Shown: in pieces, positions 339 through 13,696 of the stretch
How positions within the stretch are numbered: position 1 is the first letter of the stretch
Layout of the letters: each line of letters starts with the position of its first letter
Assembly (NCBI GenBank): GCA_016098155.1
Contig: JAAAJB010000107.1
Coordinates: 1 to 64,000 of the forward strand
Source of the DNA: Actinomortierella ambigua
Taxonomy: Eukaryota; Mortierellomycota; Mortierellomycetes; Mortierellales; Mortierellaceae
Reading direction: 5' to 3'
DNA length: 64,000 bases
The notes under the pieces: generated by a model
Told to the model about the DNA's origin: nothing
The model's database searches: none
What the model saw: the letters and a program-made list of their open reading frames with translations, nothing else
Made by a program: the position numbers and the translations under genes

Positions 339-3300
339 ATGGCGCATTACCAAGAGTAAGTCAACAGAGCGCATAGAAGGTGCTGATTTCCTTGCTGCAG
401 TCCATTAACTTCAATTCTCTCTCCAATAGTGTCAACTCGACGTTGGTCAAAGGGCCACCAATTGGATCGGGTTCTTCTAGTAAGGTCTTCTTTGGTTACT
501 GGTCCGGACTGCCTTGCGCCATCAAGCAAATCTCGATCCCCAGCGAGACCATCGAGCGGGAGGTTGCCCTCTTTCGGAATCTTCAGCATAAGAATATTAT
601 CCAATTCTATGCAGCCTTCGACCACACCACCGCCAGCAACAAAAAGATGCTCCTCATTGTCATGGAGTATGCCGAGAACGGGTCACTCACCAATGCCATC
701 CAAAGCAAATGCCTAAACTGGGAGGACAAGAAGCGCATCTCACACCAGATTATCTGTGGCCTCGCCTACATGCATTCTTGTCGTGTTCTCCACCGAGATC
801 TCAAAAGTGACAATGTGCTCCTCACAGACGGCATGAAGGTGGCCAAGCTGTGCGACTTTGGACTCGCCAAGCTGAAACCGCTCGGCCAGACACCAGACGA
901 CAACGATGGACATGTTGGGACACGTCGATGGATGGCGCCAGAACTGTTTGACACCAATACTGAGCACACCACCAAGACAGATGTGTATTCTCTCGGTTGG
1001 ATTCTCTGGCAGGTTGCATTCGACATTACCCGACCATTCGACCACCTTGACGAAGATGATGCTATCGAGCAAGTCAAGAAGGGTGCTCGAGGGAGGATCC
1101 CAGACGAAACACCGGACGAGGTTCGAAGACCAATCGAAGGTTTCTGGCAACACAAAGCATCATCACGACCTGAGGCAGGAACATTCCTCGACGAGAACAC
1201 CTTCCCTCAAGGTCAAGACGATGTTCCCACTCTTACGTTTTCGTTTGGGACCAGTGTCGAGGATATTTCTGACATTCGAGACGATGAAATGCAGATGCTT
1301 GTCAGCACAATCAACAATAGTACCGTCCAGAGTTTGACCATCTCTCCGCATTTACTGCCCGTTCAGCAACAATTTCCTCGGTTGCCCACGAAAATATCTC
1401 CACCAACAGAATCATCGGCGCTGAAAATTTTCGTGCGCGATTTCAAGCAGCTTGCCTATGCTGAAAACATGTACGCTCAGTTTGCGTTGGGGATGATGTT
1501 CCTCAAGAGCAAAGGATCTGTCCAGAGTAATTTTGAAGCCTTCTACTGGTTCAAGAAGGCCGCCGAGCTCGGACATCCAGAGGCACAATTCTACATTGGA
1601 GATCTATACGAACGCGACAGGCTGCTCCACAAGGATGTCGGCCGAGCTGTCCACTGGTATGGCAAGGCGGCAGAACAGAACCATCCCGAAGCGATGCGGC
1701 GTCTTCTCGCATTTGTTCCTCCAAACCCAATGTGTGATCAAGACTATACGTATCCTTCTGATGACCAGACACCACGCTCTTCGGATCGACATTTGGGGGG
1801 CCATAGAGGCCATACCAATGACCACCTTCCTCCACATGCTCCCTTCAAATCCGACTCTGGTGACCCATCCAGCAATTTTGGCGGTACCAAAGTCACTGAC
1901 TCAGGTGACTCTCACAGCGATTCTGGGGCTCTAAGAAAATCTGGCCCTCCGACAACAAGCTTAGCGCCCGGTAAAGCCGAGGTAAGGAACGAGTGTACAG
2001 AGTCGGATTCTACGCCATGCAGAGTATTATATTTCACAATCAATATCACTGACTGTACGCTTCGTCGCTTTTTGCATAGAACGCGATTGCCGACAAGAAC
2101 CAAACCGGCGCTGGCAGAGAAACTCCGCCATTTAGCATAAACACGAACCAGTCCGTTCCGACGAGCCAGGCCGACTCTACCTTCCCGTTCAATCCTACTA
2201 GCAGCGCGATCTGCAAGTCCGTCGATCATTCAAGCCAGCTGAATGTCAGCAAATCTGGGACTCCCAACTCAGCGTCGGCCATTTTCAAGAGGATAGAGCA
2301 ACACCTGCCCGACATTATTTTCTTCCAGGCGACGGTCGGCAAAATCCTCAGTGATCTGAAGACGCCAATGTACGCGCCTGGTGAGCGAGATCCAGCAGTC
2401 GTCGACGCCCTCCGAAAGCTCCATGTCATTATTGTCATGCTGTCGTCTTCTGGGTTGGCTCTTTCTCTCGACAACGCTAATATCAATGAAGTCTGCTCGG
2501 ATCTGAGTCGTGTCCGGCAAGAGCTGTGTCGGTCCCTTGGCATGCACGACAACGCTATCAACGTCGAGGAGGAGGAACAGAAGGATGCGAGTGCCGTTCG
2601 AGTCGCACAGGCCAAGCTTTCCAAAAAACGCAGCAACGCCAAGCTGCTATTTAGAGAGTTCAGGGTGCGCGAGGAGCAGATCAAGAAGTTCTTCCTTGAC
2701 AAAGACAATCTTCGCCTGGATGAGATCATTGCTGAAGACAACATCTCCAAGACTTTCAAGGGCGAGATCATCGCTGGCGACAGCAAGGGCAAGAAGGTCC
2801 ATGTCAAGGAATATACCAAGATCGCTTTCGTTGACTTGAATGTCATCGCTCAGCGCATAATCTTTCTCACCCAGTTGATGAACCGCTGTGAGAATATTGC
2901 TCGCCCACGATTCGCCGTACCGTCCGCCAAGATGATTGTCGTGGATCCAATCACACACATGACCTTGGGGAGTATCCTGCAGGCAGGGGCGATGACCAAG
3001 GCTCAGAAAATCGAGGTCTCGCTGAAGATCGCGGGAGCTCTGGCCTTTGTTCACACATTCGACATTCTCCATCGCGACATTCGGGCCTCCAACGTGTTCA
3101 TGATAGAGAGCACTACCTCTGACGGCCGAACGGTGACTGTACCCAAACTCACAGGATTCGAGATCTGCCGTGACCGTCAGGGTGACAACTCCCGCGGCGA
3201 TAAGTTCCCAAAGCAGCCTATGTATGCGCCAGAGATTGCAACTGGACATGGTGCGAGCCTCAAGTCGGATGTGTTTTCGTTTGGCGTGCTGATGTACGAA

Positions 3301-3525
3301 ATTTCGATGGGCAAGAGTCCCCCGATGGAAGGGAAGTGGGTCACACAACAGGATGTAGACATTTGGCAGAGCCAAGAGCATGACCAAATGTCTGGTCCAT
3401 ACTCAGACCTCTTGGCACGATGCATCTCATTTGACCCTGAGGGACGCCCCAGCATGAAGGAAGTTGCTGAGATGCTTGTCACCGTGGCAAGCGAGCAGAG
3501 TTTGCTTTATGATGAAATTATTTAG
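339..3525 (+). CDS. TKL-type kinase - Sel1 repeats - MLKL-like pseudokinase fusion protein
   Basis: Three exons: 339-355, 430-1981, 2080-3525, giving 1004 residues. Introns have GTAAGT and GTAAGG donors and TAG acceptors; the second has a CTGAC branch site, and phases match. The ATG at 339 is preferred because the reading frame of exon 2 has no upstream ATG. Residues about 15-290 are a complete kinase: glycine loop GSGSSSKV, Lys38, HRDLKSDN near 127, DFG at 148, APE near 175. Residues about 355-432 are Sel1-like repeats (AELGHPEAQFYIG). Residues about 591-730 are charged and helical. From about 732 to the end is a second kinase fold with HRDIRASN near 854 and APE near 907, but GFE replaces DFG near 880, so it is probably a pseudokinase. 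The helical-plus-GFE layout resembles MLKL; the kinase-plus-Sel1 half is typical of fungal signalling proteins. Role in signalling or cell death is inferred. Confidence 0.8.
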
Positions 3526-3759: not shown

Positions 3760-4115
3760 AGCACGGGAACGAGACGTGCCACAGCCTTGAGGGCGACTGC
3801 TCCCGCGGCGAGTAGATTTCAAAGCAGCCAATGAATGCGCCAGAGATTGCGACTGGATATGGTACGAGCCTAACGACGGATGTGTTTGCGTTTGGCGTGC
3901 TGATGTACGAAATTTTAATGGGTAGGCGTCCCCCCACGGAAGTGGAAGTGGGTCACAAAACAGGATGCGGACAATTGGTACGAAGAGGAGCACGGATCAT
4001 TGTCGAATCATTACTATTCAGCGCTCCTGGTGTGATGCATCTCGTTCGACTATGAGGCACGTCCACACATGAGAATCGTTGCCGAGGATCTTGTCACTAT
4101 TGCTGGTGAGTAGGT
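3760..4115 (+). pseudogene. decayed copy of the C-lobe of the preceding pseudokinase domain
   Basis: This stretch matches the last exon of the gene at 339-3525 almost base by base from its activation-segment region to near its end: both carry APEIATG, then SDVF/TDVF and FGVLMYEI. Frameshifts and stops break the frame before and after the longest open piece (about 3831-4055), and no start or splice signals are associated. It is a 5'-truncated tandem copy or the end of a lost paralogue. The DNA at 3526-3759 and 4116-4342 shows nothing else I recognise; the latter is the promoter of the downstream synthase gene. Confidence 0.8.
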
Positions 4116-4342: not shown

Positions 4343-6336
<1,994 letters not shown>

Positions 6337-6794: not shown

Positions 6795-9243
6795 GTAAGT
6801 GGGCTCGGGTTCATACCAAATTTGCCCATATCGGAGCTAGTAAAGAGCCTTCTGCTAACAATGTCAATACTACTTAAATCAACCTCCGTGCTCTAGCCAA
6901 AAGAACGCTTCACGGCTGAAGCTCGGGCCATCCATTGGCAGAGGAGGCTTCGGTGAGGTCCGCTTTGCCCACTGGCATGGACAGCCGTATGCTATCAAGA
7001 TCTTCTTCCTCTCCAAGTCGGATGCCGCACAAAAGGATATCAAGAAGGAGATTCAGATCATGAGCAAGCTACGCCATCGTCACATTGTTCTGTTTCACAG
7101 AGGGGCCATTGTCCAGGAACGACTTGCCTTCATCATGGAGTACGCCGAAAACGGTAGTCTGCAGAGGGTCATCCGTTCCAAGATTTCGCTCGAATGGACG
7201 CTCAAGGAGAAGATCACGCAGGGGATTGTTCGAGGATTGGCCCATATCCACTCTGCGGGTGTCATCCACCGTGATCTCAAGAGTGGCAACGTGCTTCTCA
7301 CCAAACACATGGAGCCAAAGCTATGTGACTTTGGGCTGGCCACTGTCAAGGACCACTCAACTACCAAAGCTGGAGAGGAGACGCTCAAGGGCTCGGTCCG
7401 TTGGATGGCACCAGAACTGTTTATTGGAAAACCTCTCTACAACACAAAGATCGACATGTATGCGCTTGGATGGATTATGTGGGAATTGGCTACCGACACC
7501 ACACCTCCATTCTGGGAACAACCTGCCGATGCTGTTGTTATTAGTCTGGTGAAAGAGGGTGAGCGCCTGCCAATCCCTAGCGACACCCCCAGCGACTATC
7601 AGCGGTGGATTCAGAGATGCTGGGATCAGAATCCTACGAATCGACCAGCAGCTGACGAGATGGTTACCGAGGAGCCTGAACCAGAAGGTATCTGCGAAGG
7701 CGAGGTCTCTCTAGGCTCATTTTCCACAAGTAGGGTCGCGATGTTGCAGTCGGAAAGCGAATCTCAAGCAGCGTCAATTCCTTCATCATCCAAGTTGAGT
7801 TCGTCGGCGTCCCTCACCGCAGCACCCACGAGCATTATATTAGCTGATGATGCCGAGTCCTCGCAGCTGGCTGCACCATTCCAAGATTTGGATCTCGAGG
7901 AGATTGATGACTATCATGAGAAGGACAACAAGGACGCTCTTTTCGCCATGGGAGAGATGCACAAGAAGAGCGCGGGGGCAGTCCAAGATGATCTCAAGGC
8001 CCTCGTTTGTTTCTTCAGAGCAGCCGAGCATGGCCACCCCGAAGCTCAGTTTCGTATCGCAAAGATGTATGAGGCCGGACAGCCAATTCCAGTCCCAAGG
8101 GATGTTGATCGCGCAAGGCGCTGGCTCGAGCAAGCAGTCGACCATGGCCATGCTCAAGCCAAGGAGAGTCTCAACGCAATGCTGGATCAGGCACAGCCGG
8201 TTACATCGTCCTCAGATCCGCAGATTGGCTCCAGCGCCTACACGCCTGAGGTAGCGCCAGCGAACCACTTGCCAGATCCTCGCACCTTTGATCCGACAAA
8301 TTCACGAGCGTCGCCAGCAGAACAATTTCCTCTTGTCATCAGTGGCCAGATTGGAGCGGGGGGCTACAGCAGAGTCTATCAGGGTCGCTGGGGAACTCGT
8401 CAAGTTGCCATCAAAAAATTCCACCTACAACAAAGTGAAGCGTACATTGGTGCCGTCCAACATGAGATTCAGACTCTCGAACGTCTTCGACATCGGCACA
8501 TCATTCAGTTCTATGGGACAACCTATGAAGATGGCCATCTTGCTCTCATTATGGACATTGCCGAAGGGGGTAGCCTTCGGCTTGCCATTGAAGCACAAAA
8601 ATTAGACTGGTCAGCCAAAGCGCGTATCACCCAAGAGATTGTTCGTGGTCTCGCCTACATCCACGAGGTTGGCATTCTTCATCGGGACCTCAAGAGCTCC
8701 AACGTGCTCCTCACAAGGCACTTTGAAGTGAGGCTGGCTGATTTTGCCCTTGCCACGGTCAAGCAATTGATGAGCGACACTGTGATGAGTGGTGCTTTGA
8801 AAGGCACTTTGCGTTGGATGGCGCCGGAGCTCCTCTCGGCAAAACCCATATACTCAACCAAGTCGGATATGTTTGCTCTCGGTATGGTGATGTGGGAGAT
8901 GGCCGCCAACTGCACCGTTCCCTTCAAGGATGAGACCAACAACTTTAGTGTCATTTCAATTGTCCGAGGTGGCGGGCGTGAAGTGCTGCCCGAGGACACA
9001 CCCGCAGAGTATCGCCACTGGACCGAACAATGCTGGGATCAGGACCCCGCGAGCCGGCCAGAGGCGGCTGATATGATTTCGTACGATGATTTTGAACATG
9101 CGTACGCTGGCAAGGACTTGCCTCCTCCAACTGTCACCATCACGCTGACCGATTATGAGATCGACCTCCTCGATTTACCTTTGGATCCCTCTTTGCATGG
9201 TCCTGAGAGTCCATTAAGCCGTTCCGCCACCAACCTGGCGTAA
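6769..9243 (+). CDS. tandem TKL-type kinase - Sel1 - kinase protein (copy 1)
   Basis: Two exons, 6769-6794 and 6897-9243, encode 790 residues. The intron has a GTAAGT donor, a CTAAC branch site and a TAG acceptor, and the identical arrangement in the paralogue at 11173 supports the short first exon. Kinase 1 (about 15-290) is complete: GRGGFG near 23, Lys43, HRDLKSGN at 133, DFG at 153, APE near 180. Residues about 354-435 carry Sel1-like repeats (AEHGHPEAQFRIA). Kinase 2 (about 490-735) has GAGGYS, Lys515, HRDLKSSN at 604 and APE near 651, but DFA replaces DFG at 624. Probably a cytosolic Ser/Thr signalling kinase; substrate unknown. It is the nearest paralogue of 11173-13493 and is more distant from 339-3525, which has a different second domain. 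Confidence 0.85.
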
Positions 9244-11198: not shown

Positions 11199-13493
11199 GT
11201 AAGTAGACTCAGGTCCATACCACTTTTGTACTTATCGGAGCTTGTAGAGAACCTTCACTCACATCAATGCCAATGCTCCTTGAATCGACCTCCGTGTTCT
11301 AGCCAAAAGAACGCTTCGCGGCTGAAGCTCGGAGCACCCATTGGTAGAGGAGGCTTCGGTGAGGTCTACTTTGCCCGCTGGGATGGGCAGCCGTGTGCTG
11401 TCAAGGTCTTCAACCTCTCCAAGTCGGATGCCGCACAACAAGATATCAAGAAGGAGATTCTGATCATGAGCAAGCTACGCCACCGTCACATTGTTCTGTT
11501 TCACAGAGAGGCCACCATCAAAAACCGACTTGCCTTCATCATGGAGTACGCCGAAAACGGCAGTCTGCAGATGGTCATCCGTTCCAAGACTTCGCTCGGA
11601 TGGACGCTCAAGGAGAAGATCACGCAAGGAATTGTTCGAGGGTTGGCCCATATCCACTCTGAGGGTGTCCTCCACCGTGATCTCAAGAGTGGTAACGTGC
11701 TTCTCACCAAACACATGGAGCCAAAGCTATGTGACTTTGGACTGGCCACCGTCAGGGACTTCTCAACTACCAAGGCTGGAGAGAAGACGCTCAAGGGCTC
11801 GGTTCGCTGGATGGCACCAGAACTATTTGTCGGGGCACCTCGCTACAACACAAGAATCGACATTTATGCTCTTGGATGGATCATGTGGGAACTTGCTACC
11901 AACACCACACCGCCATTCTGGGAACAGCCTGACAATGATGTCGTTATTAATCTGGTGAAAAAGGGGGTGCGCCTGCCAATCCCTAGCGACACCCCCAGTG
12001 ACTATCAGCAGTGGATTCAGAGGTGCTGGGATCAGAATCCTGCGATCCGACCAGCAGCTGAAGACATGGTTGTCGAGGAGCCTGAGCCAGAAGGTGCCTG
12101 CGAAGGCGAGGTCTCCCTAGGCTTATCTTCCACAAGTAGGGCCGCAATGTTGCAGTCGGAAAGCGAATCTCAAGCGGCATCAATTCCTTCATCATCCAAG
12201 TTGAGTGCACCGTCGCCCATTACCGCGGCACCCACGGGCATTGAATTAGCTGATGATTCCGGGTCCTCGCAGCTGGCTGCAACGTTCCAAGATTTCGATC
12301 TCGAGGAGATTGACGACTATCATGTGAAGGGCATCAGGGATGCTCTTTTCGCCATGGGTGAGATGTACAAGAAGAGCACGGGGGCGGAGGCAGTCCAAGA
12401 TGATCTCAAGGCCCTTATTTGTTTCTTCAGAGCAGCCCGGCTTGGCCACGCTGAAGCTCAACTCCGTATCGCAAAGATGTATGAGGCCGGAGAGCCAATC
12501 CTAGTCCCAAGGCATGCAAGACGCTGGCTCGAGCAAGCAGTCGACCATGGCCATGCTGAGGCCAAGGAGAGTCTCAACGCGATGCTGGATCAGGCACAGC
12601 CAGCTGCCTTGTCGCCAGCAGAACGATCCCCCCTTGTGTCTAGTTGCCTGATTGGAGCAGGGAGCTACAGCAGAATCTATCGGGGTCGCTGGGGAACTCG
12701 TCAAGTTGCCTTCAAAAAATATGACATACTACGAAGTGATCTGGAAGATGATGCCGTCCGACATGAGATTCAGACTCTCAAACGTCTCCGACATCGGCAC
12801 ATCATTCAGTTCTATGGGATAGCTTATGAAGATGACCAACTTGTCCTCATCATGGACTATGCCGAAGGGGGTAACCTTTGGCTTGCCATTGAGGCACAAA
12901 AACTAGACTGGCCAGCCAAAGCGCGTATTACTCAAGAGATTGTTCGTGGTCTCGCCTACATCCACGAGGTTGGCATTCTTCATCGAGACCTCAAGAGCTC
13001 CAATGTGCTCCTCACAAGGCACCTTGAAGTGAAGCTGACTGATTTTTCTCTGGCAAAGGTCCAGCGCTCGTTGAGCATGACTACAATGAGCGGTGCTTTG
13101 AAAGGCGCTGTACGTTGGATGGCGCCGGAGCTCTTTTCGGCAAAACCCAAATACTCGACCAAGTCGGATATGTTTGCTCTCGGCGTAGTGATGTGGGAGA
13201 TGGCCGCCAACTCTACCCGTCCCTTCAGGGAGATGGTCGACAACCTGGTTGTCATTACAATCGTCATAAATGGCGGGCGCGAAGACCTGCCCGATGATAC
13301 ACCCGCAGATTATCGCCATTGGACAAAAAAATGCTGGAACCAGAACCCCACGAGACGGCCAGAGGCGGCTGATATGATTTCGTACGATGATTATGAAGAT
13401 GCGTTGGCTGGCAAGAGCTCGTCTCTAACTGAATTCAACTCGCTGATCGATTATACTGTCGACCTCTCCGAGCTCTCTTCAGACTTGGACTAA
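11173..13493 (+). CDS. tandem TKL-type kinase - Sel1 - kinase protein (copy 2)
   Basis: Two exons, 11173-11198 and 11303-13493, encode 738 residues. Gene structure and sequence closely match the copy at 6769-9243. Kinase 1 is complete (GRGGFG near 23, Lys43, HRDLKSGN near 133, DFG near 153). Sel1-like repeats follow (ARLGHAEAQLRIA). The linker before kinase 2 is about 35 residues shorter than in copy 1. Kinase 2 begins near 459 with GAGSYS, has AFKKY at the ATP-lysine position and HRDLKSSN near 569, but DFS instead of DFG near 589. The two copies thus carry different substitutions at the same glycine. Probable signalling kinase; target not known. The 353 bases between this gene and the next (13494-13846) hold the duplicated 3' flank and nothing else seen. 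Confidence 0.85.
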
Positions 13494-13696
13494 ACCCGAG
13501 CTGGTACGCAATACACTGCCCCCTCCCAGATAGATACCCATAGATTTGTCGTAGATTAACACCTGAGCAGTGTGTGTGTTTTCGTTGATTCTCTGAGCAA
13601 GTGTTTGGTGCTCTATGACAGTAATGTGTGTCCACTTCCCGAGAAAATCTATCTTCACATAACCCACCCCCACAACCCTGCACGCTGCCATCTTTG

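Follow-up and report, generated by a model that had tools for sequence, protein, structure and literature searches.

An intact TKL-type kinase fused to a predicted MLKL-like bundle and a GFE pseudokinase in Actinomortierella ambigua

Background

Vertebrate MLKL is composed of a four-helix bundle, a brace and a pseudokinase that has GFE and HGK at the DFG and HRD positions, and is phosphorylated by a separate kinase, RIPK3, at T357/S358 (PMC6013482, PMC5104457; here and below, papers are cited for the parts consulted). Here we describe a gene at positions 339-3525 (forward strand) of a 64,000-nucleotide stretch of DNA from the soil fungus Actinomortierella ambigua, positions 1-64,000 of the forward strand of contig JAAAJB010000107.1 (assembly GCA_016098155.1), which is referred to as the window. 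The encoded protein resembles vertebrate MLKL in having a predicted four-helix bundle and brace, a GFE pseudokinase and an activation-loop serine. It differs in that an intact kinase lies on the same chain, HRD is found where MLKL has HGK, the bundle is not at a free N-terminus, and the position of S358 is occupied by glycine.

Partly similar proteins are known from plants and fungi. Plant MLKLs and wheat Pm13 (MLKL_NTD-kinase) also carry a four-helix bundle, a brace and a kinase fold on one chain, but they have a single kinase fold, which in Pm13 retains all catalytic residues, and the cited parts of the source describe neither a second kinase nor Sel1 repeats (PMC10951266). The fungal effector domains HeLo, HELL (including HELL in kinase and pseudokinase proteins) and BaMLKL are MLKL-related helical bundles, but the parts of the literature consulted describe neither a second intact kinase nor a GFE triad for them, and HeLo and HELL have no Pfam match in the window protein. 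A paper on the evolution of MLKL in metazoans applies the name MLKL to a Basidiobolus protein and, in the parts consulted, describes no fusion to a second kinase (PMC11476962). Sel1 proteins of Glomeromycotina are listed under the MLKL family of TCDB and reported to be exclusive to that group; the same parts of the source describe no second-kinase fusion, bundle or triad (PMC8778642). Plant tandem kinase proteins (WTK family) have two kinase folds per chain and act in immunity, but no MLKL-like bundle is described before the second fold in the parts cited (PMC11153570, PMC11006675). No report of an intact kinase and an MLKL-like pseudokinase on one chain was found in the portions of the open-access PMC literature consulted.

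MLKL-type bundles are known from fungal NLRs and from plant and animal kinase-like proteins, and a 2025 review calls, in the part cited, for broader exploration of fungal HeLo and four-helix-bundle proteins (PMC12881547). At this locus an activator-type kinase is covalently tied to an MLKL-like module that also occurs alone in the same genome, so that a kinase-thrown MLKL-type switch in a fungus would be directly testable with purified parts.

Results and discussion

Kinase and C-terminal module are encoded by a single gene

Loci (L) and contigs (C) named below belong to the same Actinomortierella genome (G000; 33.8 Mb, 846 contigs), and P numbers denote proteins obtained from searches. The window gene comprises three exons, 339-355, 430-1981 and 2080-3525, separated by GT-AG introns at 356-429 and 1982-2079; joining the exons leaves an open frame of 1004 residues. 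Its features are as follows.

339..355, + strand: exon 1 with the putative start codon (MAHYQ and 2 bases); GT donor at 356, AG acceptor at 428-429, open frame
430..1981, + strand: exon 2, encoding kinase 1, the Sel1 repeats and the start of the linker; frame, GT donor and junction shared with GenBank P0001
443..1210, + strand: kinase 1, TKL type, residues 11-266; Pfam PF07714, best stretch 16-255
791-799, + strand: HRD of kinase 1, from motif reading
854-862, + strand: DFG of kinase 1, from motif reading
1415..1741, + strand: Sel1 repeat region, residues 335-443; Pfam PF08238, 2 stretches, expect value (E) 2.2e-13, best 354-388
1742..2265, + strand: Ser/Pro-rich linker, residues 444-585, split by the intron at 1982-2079; 43% identical to P0002
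1982..2079, + strand: intron 2, 98 bp, GT-AG; same junction in P0001
2080..3525, + strand: exon 3, encoding the end of the linker, the four-helix bundle, the brace, the pseudokinase and the stop; open frame
2272..2535, + strand: predicted four-helix bundle (AlphaFold): h1 588-601, h2 606-620, h3 628-645, short hM 647-651, h4 655-675
2566..2658, + strand: predicted brace helix, residues 686-716 (AlphaFold)
2692..3516, + strand: pseudokinase, residues 728-1002, a kinase fold in exon 3
3154..3162, + strand: GFE triad in place of DFG, residues 882-884, from the family alignment
3190..3192, + strand: Ser894 of the activation loop, a candidate phosphosite; invariant alignment column

The GenBank model of the window gene (P0001, DFQ27_000338, Actinomortierella ambigua) has an identical exon 2/3 junction. 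It starts further in, at MEYAENG, so the start codon assigned to exon 1 is putative; the N-terminus of another GenBank protein, P0004, MTLYQDVDSTLVKGP, resembles that of P0001. A stop immediately before 2080 bounds the exon 3 frame, in which residue 620, within helix 2, is the first methionine, so the bundle cannot start independently from exon 3. In three related loci, L011, L013 and L014, kinase, helices and pseudokinase lie in uninterrupted open reading frames of 735, 881 and 784 residues, respectively. Because of these single-frame relatives, the shared P0001 junction and the lack of a methionine before residue 620 in exon 3, the fusion of kinase and C-terminal module is, on gene-model evidence, real and not an annotation error. 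A preliminary description of this locus, made from the DNA letters, had proposed a kinase joined to an MLKL-like C-terminal half in one chain; the motifs, Pfam matches and predicted layout given below agree with this, and the gene structure upholds the assignment of both halves to one gene.

Kinase 1 has a complete set of catalytic motifs

Pfam places two kinase-domain stretches and two Sel1 stretches in the window protein (PF07714, E 3.4e-70 on the whole protein). As read from its sequence, kinase 1 carries the full motif set of an active TKL kinase: a G-loop (GSGSSSKV), a VAIK-type lysine (CAIK), HRD (127-129), DFG (148-150) and APE (175-177). Among solved structures, its sequence is closest to that of the plant kinase CTR1 (E 6.4e-28), a Raf-like TKL. 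The linker that separates kinase 1 and the Sel1 repeats from the C-terminal module is 43% identical to that of P0002, compared with 70-85% for the domains and 78% for the bundle. The ratio of nonsynonymous to synonymous substitution rates (dN/dS) against paralog L010 is 1.96 for the linker (62 codons), 0.59 for the bundle and 0.34 for the pseudokinase.

A four-helix bundle and brace are predicted in fused and lone proteins

Residues 574-1004 of the window protein were modelled with AlphaFold, the input holding 12 further rows, one of which was the same protein. The model (m6b390a88f98a) had a predicted local distance difference test score (pLDDT) of 80.6 and a predicted template modelling score (pTM) of 0.85, and ten-residue blocks of the bundle region had pLDDT values of 73-93. 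About 130 residues (588-716) are mostly helical in this prediction and are followed by the kinase fold. For P0041, in which the module stands alone, the model (pLDDT 72.0, pTM 0.59) has helices at 4-20, 26-46 and 50-70, a short helix at 73-79, a helix at 82-99 and a long helix at 111-139, then the kinase fold. Both the fused and the lone form are thus predicted to have the layout of MLKL, in which h1-h4 with a short hM are followed by a long brace and the kinase fold. A short hM cross-helix between h3 and h4 seems to be common to human and basidiomycete MLKLs and HeLo-like proteins, according to the part of the source cited (PMC9815663). An ordinary coiled coil had been named as the outcome that would speak against the preliminary description; AlphaFold predicts a bundle and brace instead.

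Profiles suggest a distant relation of the lone-copy bundle to MLKL_N

Helical segments of the window type (6 rows) and the lone type (5 rows) were compared as profiles with hhalign. The two types aligned over 139 columns with a probability of 96.5% and a score of 63.5, a value reached by 0 of 200 shuffles (best 36.4). The lone type was then set against an MLKL_N set of five sequences: mouse and human MLKL stretches, two loci of the same genome that exceed the Pfam MLKL_N cut-off (L039 and L040), and P0070, which falls just below it. They aligned over 103 columns with a probability of 66% and a score of 34.0, and 0 of 300 shuffles scored as high (best 24.7). These profiles suggest that the bundle of the lone paralogs is a distant relative of MLKL_N and that the window-type helices are kin to the lone type; the convincing link to MLKL_N comes from the lone-copy profile only.

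When PDB sequences were searched with the lone-type profile, 5 of the 18 matches were MLKL chains (E 0.33-0.45), and no other match covered more than about 55 profile positions; four nucleoproteins scored better. Pfam MLKL_N matched 2 of the 10 helical segments, both below the cut-off (best E 0.0084, in L017), and gave no match to the window protein (E up to 1). HeLo, HELL and Goodbye had no Pfam match in the window protein or its exon 3 (E up to 1), in 4 paralogs (E up to 5) or in the 10 helical segments (E up to 10); the HMMER filters discard most matches above about 0.1. A pooled profile of both helix types (10 rows) was discarded: MLKL accounted for 5 of 31 PDB matches at E of about 0.5, amid unrelated proteins with similar or better scores, and against MLKL_N the pooled score was a weak 19.5, exceeded by 1 of 100 shuffles with an odd, unexplained value of 134.

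The pseudokinase has GFE in place of DFG

The C-terminal kinase fold (PF07714, E 1.3e-23) contains VHVK, HRD at 854-856 and GFE at 882-884 in the context KLTGFE. Both features to which the preliminary description had drawn attention, the replacement of DFG by GFE and an HRD that is kept unlike in MLKL, recur through the family: among 20 members the triad is GFE in 17 and AFE in 3, and the HRD position reads HRD in 17, HCD in 1 and HRN in 2. A branch of the pseudokinase tree (100/99) has these 20 members on one side and 16 other kinase domains on the other. The GFE shared with MLKL may be either inherited or convergent; by sequence, MLKL is not the top-ranking solved kinase for the pseudokinase (best 60 listed).

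The Ser894 column of the activation loop is invariant, in 13/13 rows of one alignment (A2, two rows of which are the same protein) and 10/10 rows of another (A1). Serine is common in other loops of the genome, and is found at +10 in 53% of 30 DFG loops. Weak matches to Pfam DUF7580 were seen over the pseudokinase in L016, L019, P0040, L010 and L012, all below the curated cut-off, the best being that of L019 (E 4.9e-5).

Repeated fusion or separation of kinase and module

Copies with open frames in the genome are either fused (the window gene, L011, L013, L014 and L019) or lone (L010, L012, L015, L016 and L017), five of each. L015, L016 and L017 open with their own methionine shortly before helix 1, as do the GenBank proteins P0041 and P0040. 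No kinase lies upstream of L010 or L012 within the stretch read; the frame before L010 is unrelated and its translation resembles an acetyltransferase, and after L010, at the contig edge, a kinase begins. Other GenBank entries from A. ambigua and A. wolfii add the fused P0002-P0007, including a partial model (P0003) with Sel1 and no visible first kinase, and the lone P0040-P0044. The label of P0044 is unsure: by eye, its N-terminus resembles the last part of a Sel1 repeat, Pfam finds no Sel1, and its contig is only 3149 bases long. Decayed copies of the module were found at window positions 3765-4113 and on contigs C723 and C465.

A first kinase is visible in ten fused proteins (the window protein, L011, L013, L014, L019, P0002 and P0004-P0007), with HxD in 10/10 and DFG in 9/10. 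The kinase of L019, a more distant fused copy that shares one 13.4-kb contig with L015 and L017, has HQD and GFG. P0004 (DFQ27_009570, 1218 residues) is arranged as kinase-Sel1-kinase-bundle-pseudokinase. Its first kinase groups with that of the window protein, and its second kinase and pseudokinase with those of L014, as though a fused gene had been added in front of another one. P0003 and P0004 carry DFQ27 tags, and the best matches of P0004 in G000 reach only 70-76%.

On the pseudokinase tree the label fused or alone requires 4 changes with P0003 taken as fused and P0044 as alone. With both left unlabelled, 4 changes are still required, 3 of them forced by well-supported branches. The tree thus indicates that fusion or separation of kinase and module took place more than once, and this suggests a functional link between them. 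In a tree of the partner kinases (9 partner and 25 background rows) 3 changes were counted, and the partners formed one clade in 0% of 200 bootstraps.

A possible one-chain counterpart of the RIPK3-MLKL pair

Judged by the repeated joining, the loss of DFG and a layout like that of MLKL, the most probable function is a kinase-to-module switch. We tentatively propose, with a probability of about 0.42, that the single chain works as a RIPK3-MLKL pair, kinase 1 phosphorylating the pseudokinase loop and thereby freeing the bundle for membrane attack. As the best explanation, this draws on what can be read from the DNA (the fused gene, the kinase motifs, the missing DFG, the invariant serine column and the presence of fused and lone forms in one genome) together with the predicted bundle and brace. 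Phosphorylation, switching and membrane attack are the steps that we infer. Kinase 1, once engaged, would phosphorylate the activation loop of the pseudokinase, either in cis or on the lone paralogs; this would loosen the brace and release the bundle to assemble and attack the membrane. The bundle is internal in the fused form, and helix 1 of the lone copies lies close to a free N-terminus. The fused protein would therefore either have its bundle freed by a cut within the long, variable linker or serve as a seed that triggers the lone copies. Echinoderm MLKL, which is activated by caspase cleavage according to the part of the source cited, offers a loose precedent for the former (PMC11932488).

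Several results weigh against this proposal. The main objection to killing by the fused protein is the internal position of the bundle, which begins at residue 588 of 1004, after about 580 residues and not at a free N-terminus (helix 1 of P0041 lies near one, at 4-20); MLKL and HeLo proteins act through N-terminal helices, in the parts of the sources cited (PMC10197012, PMC12881547). The window-type helices have no direct MLKL_N profile match (score 11.8 with 4 rows, 12.4 with 6), so the kinship of the window bundle to MLKL is transitive only. The lone-type score drops to 12.6-19.4 against parts of the MLKL_N set, and the lone-type result therefore leans on the whole set. The earlier suggestion of MLKL-like helices is thus supported for the window type only through its link to the lone-paralog profile. 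Foldseek and VIA searches with both bundle-and-pseudokinase models returned, among the matches listed, kinases only; they are uninformative about the bundle fold, and the absence of MLKL from the matches listed for either model excludes nothing. The dN/dS of the brace against L010 is 1.00, over 31 codons only.

Further points against it come from the pseudokinase and from the distribution of the family. HRD is kept in the window pseudokinase, and the MLKL-type loss of this motif (HGK) was not found there. The position of MLKL S358, +7 after the triad, drew attention because it is serine in lone copies, but only 7/20 members have this serine, most of them closely related to one another, and the window protein has glycine there; serine also stands at +7 in 10% of 30 DFG loops, and the resemblance to S358 was set aside. 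A 38-position activation-segment profile gave 11 PDB matches at E up to 10, all 11 to MLKL (E 0.021-0.69). With the triad masked, this profile gave 0 PDB matches; the MLKL-only result thus reflects little beyond the shared triad. A wider activation-segment profile ranks Lyn, CSK and Lck first. A single clade of partner kinases was not rejected (approximately unbiased test, p-AU 0.10), which leaves independent fusions to several kinases unproven. In three protein searches, two of them limited to about 8000 candidates, the matches listed that cover the bundle well are from Actinomortierella only. Homologs not named Actinomortierella numbered at least 32/39 and at least 43/48 in two of the searches, with query cover of at most 52% and 63%; they were taken for generic kinases, four of them having been read (P0070, P0071, P0079 and P0082).

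The alternative that survives best is that the protein is a tandem-kinase sensor of immunity or allorecognition, in which the MLKL-like module is bait or regulator, kinase 1 is the output, and the fused protein attacks no membrane. Its functional analogues would be the plant tandem-kinase and kinase-fusion resistance proteins. This is the main rival, and we hold it to be somewhat less probable than the switch proposed above. It would accommodate a bundle that is internal and behind a fast-changing linker, the decayed copies that surround the window gene, and a variable number of kinases, as in P0004 with two kinases and Sel1 before the module. In addition, integrated domains of kinase-fusion proteins are presumed to perceive effectors, a view that the cited part of the source calls paradoxical for the MLKL_NTD of Pm13 (PMC10951266). 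A pure bait, however, does not explain why lone proteins, which have no kinase 1, retain the predicted bundle and brace. Less probable is a signalling kinase of the ordinary multidomain kind, whose helical segment would do no more than dimerise the protein and whose pseudokinase would regulate kinase 1 allosterically, with no role in cell death. The abundance of kinase-domain matches in the genome, the further multi-kinase proteins beside the window gene and the lack of a direct MLKL_N match of the window-type helices are all in keeping with such a kinase; the predicted MLKL helix order with its brace, the transitive MLKL_N profile link and the lone copies are not. That two neighbouring genes were mis-joined is very improbable: the junction does depend on a window intron of 98 bp, and no kinase precedes paralog L010 in the stretch read, but three relatives hold both halves in single open frames, the GenBank model joins them at the same point, and exon 3 has no methionine before residue 620, inside helix 2.

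The proposed kinase-to-module relay has a wider form, which we regard as doubtful: a one-chain necrosome, in which an early-diverging fungus has welded a RIPK3-like kinase to its own MLKL-like killer, with lone killers kept and the two repeatedly joined or separated. If true, the kinase-to-MLKL relay would be cell-death wiring that fungi and animals either share or have re-invented.

Neighbouring and related loci

One further feature lies just downstream of the window gene.

3765..4113, + strand: decayed second copy of the pseudokinase end, in pieces of 64% (1 TAG) and 56% (1 TGA and 1 TAG) identity

With stops inside it, this copy looks like the remnant of a tandem duplication. Two further kinase stretches make a kinase cluster beside the window gene: the frame at 6859-9243 reads as two kinases on either side of a Sel1-like stretch, the second of them with the triad DFA, and at about 11340-13535 a 787-residue frame has two kinase matches, one with a TAA inside the matched stretch. 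Between the kinase genes, at 4484-6336, are frames that resemble, by eye, a tRNA-dihydrouridine synthase. The genome as a whole has at least 147 PF07714 kinase-domain matches (147/489 candidates scored), many in long frames.

The MLKL_N domains of L039 (C834:39386-39772) and L040 (C20:38051-38365) have no kinase in the frames seen and are possibly a second MLKL-type family of the Actinomortierella genome. L039 matches mouse MLKL (E 0.00086), and cysteine-rich frames adjoin both loci. P0070, a metagenomic protein of 857 residues, has an MLKL_N-like start (E 1.7e-5) followed by a kinase with HRD and DFG, and would be an MLKL-like protein with an active-looking kinase.

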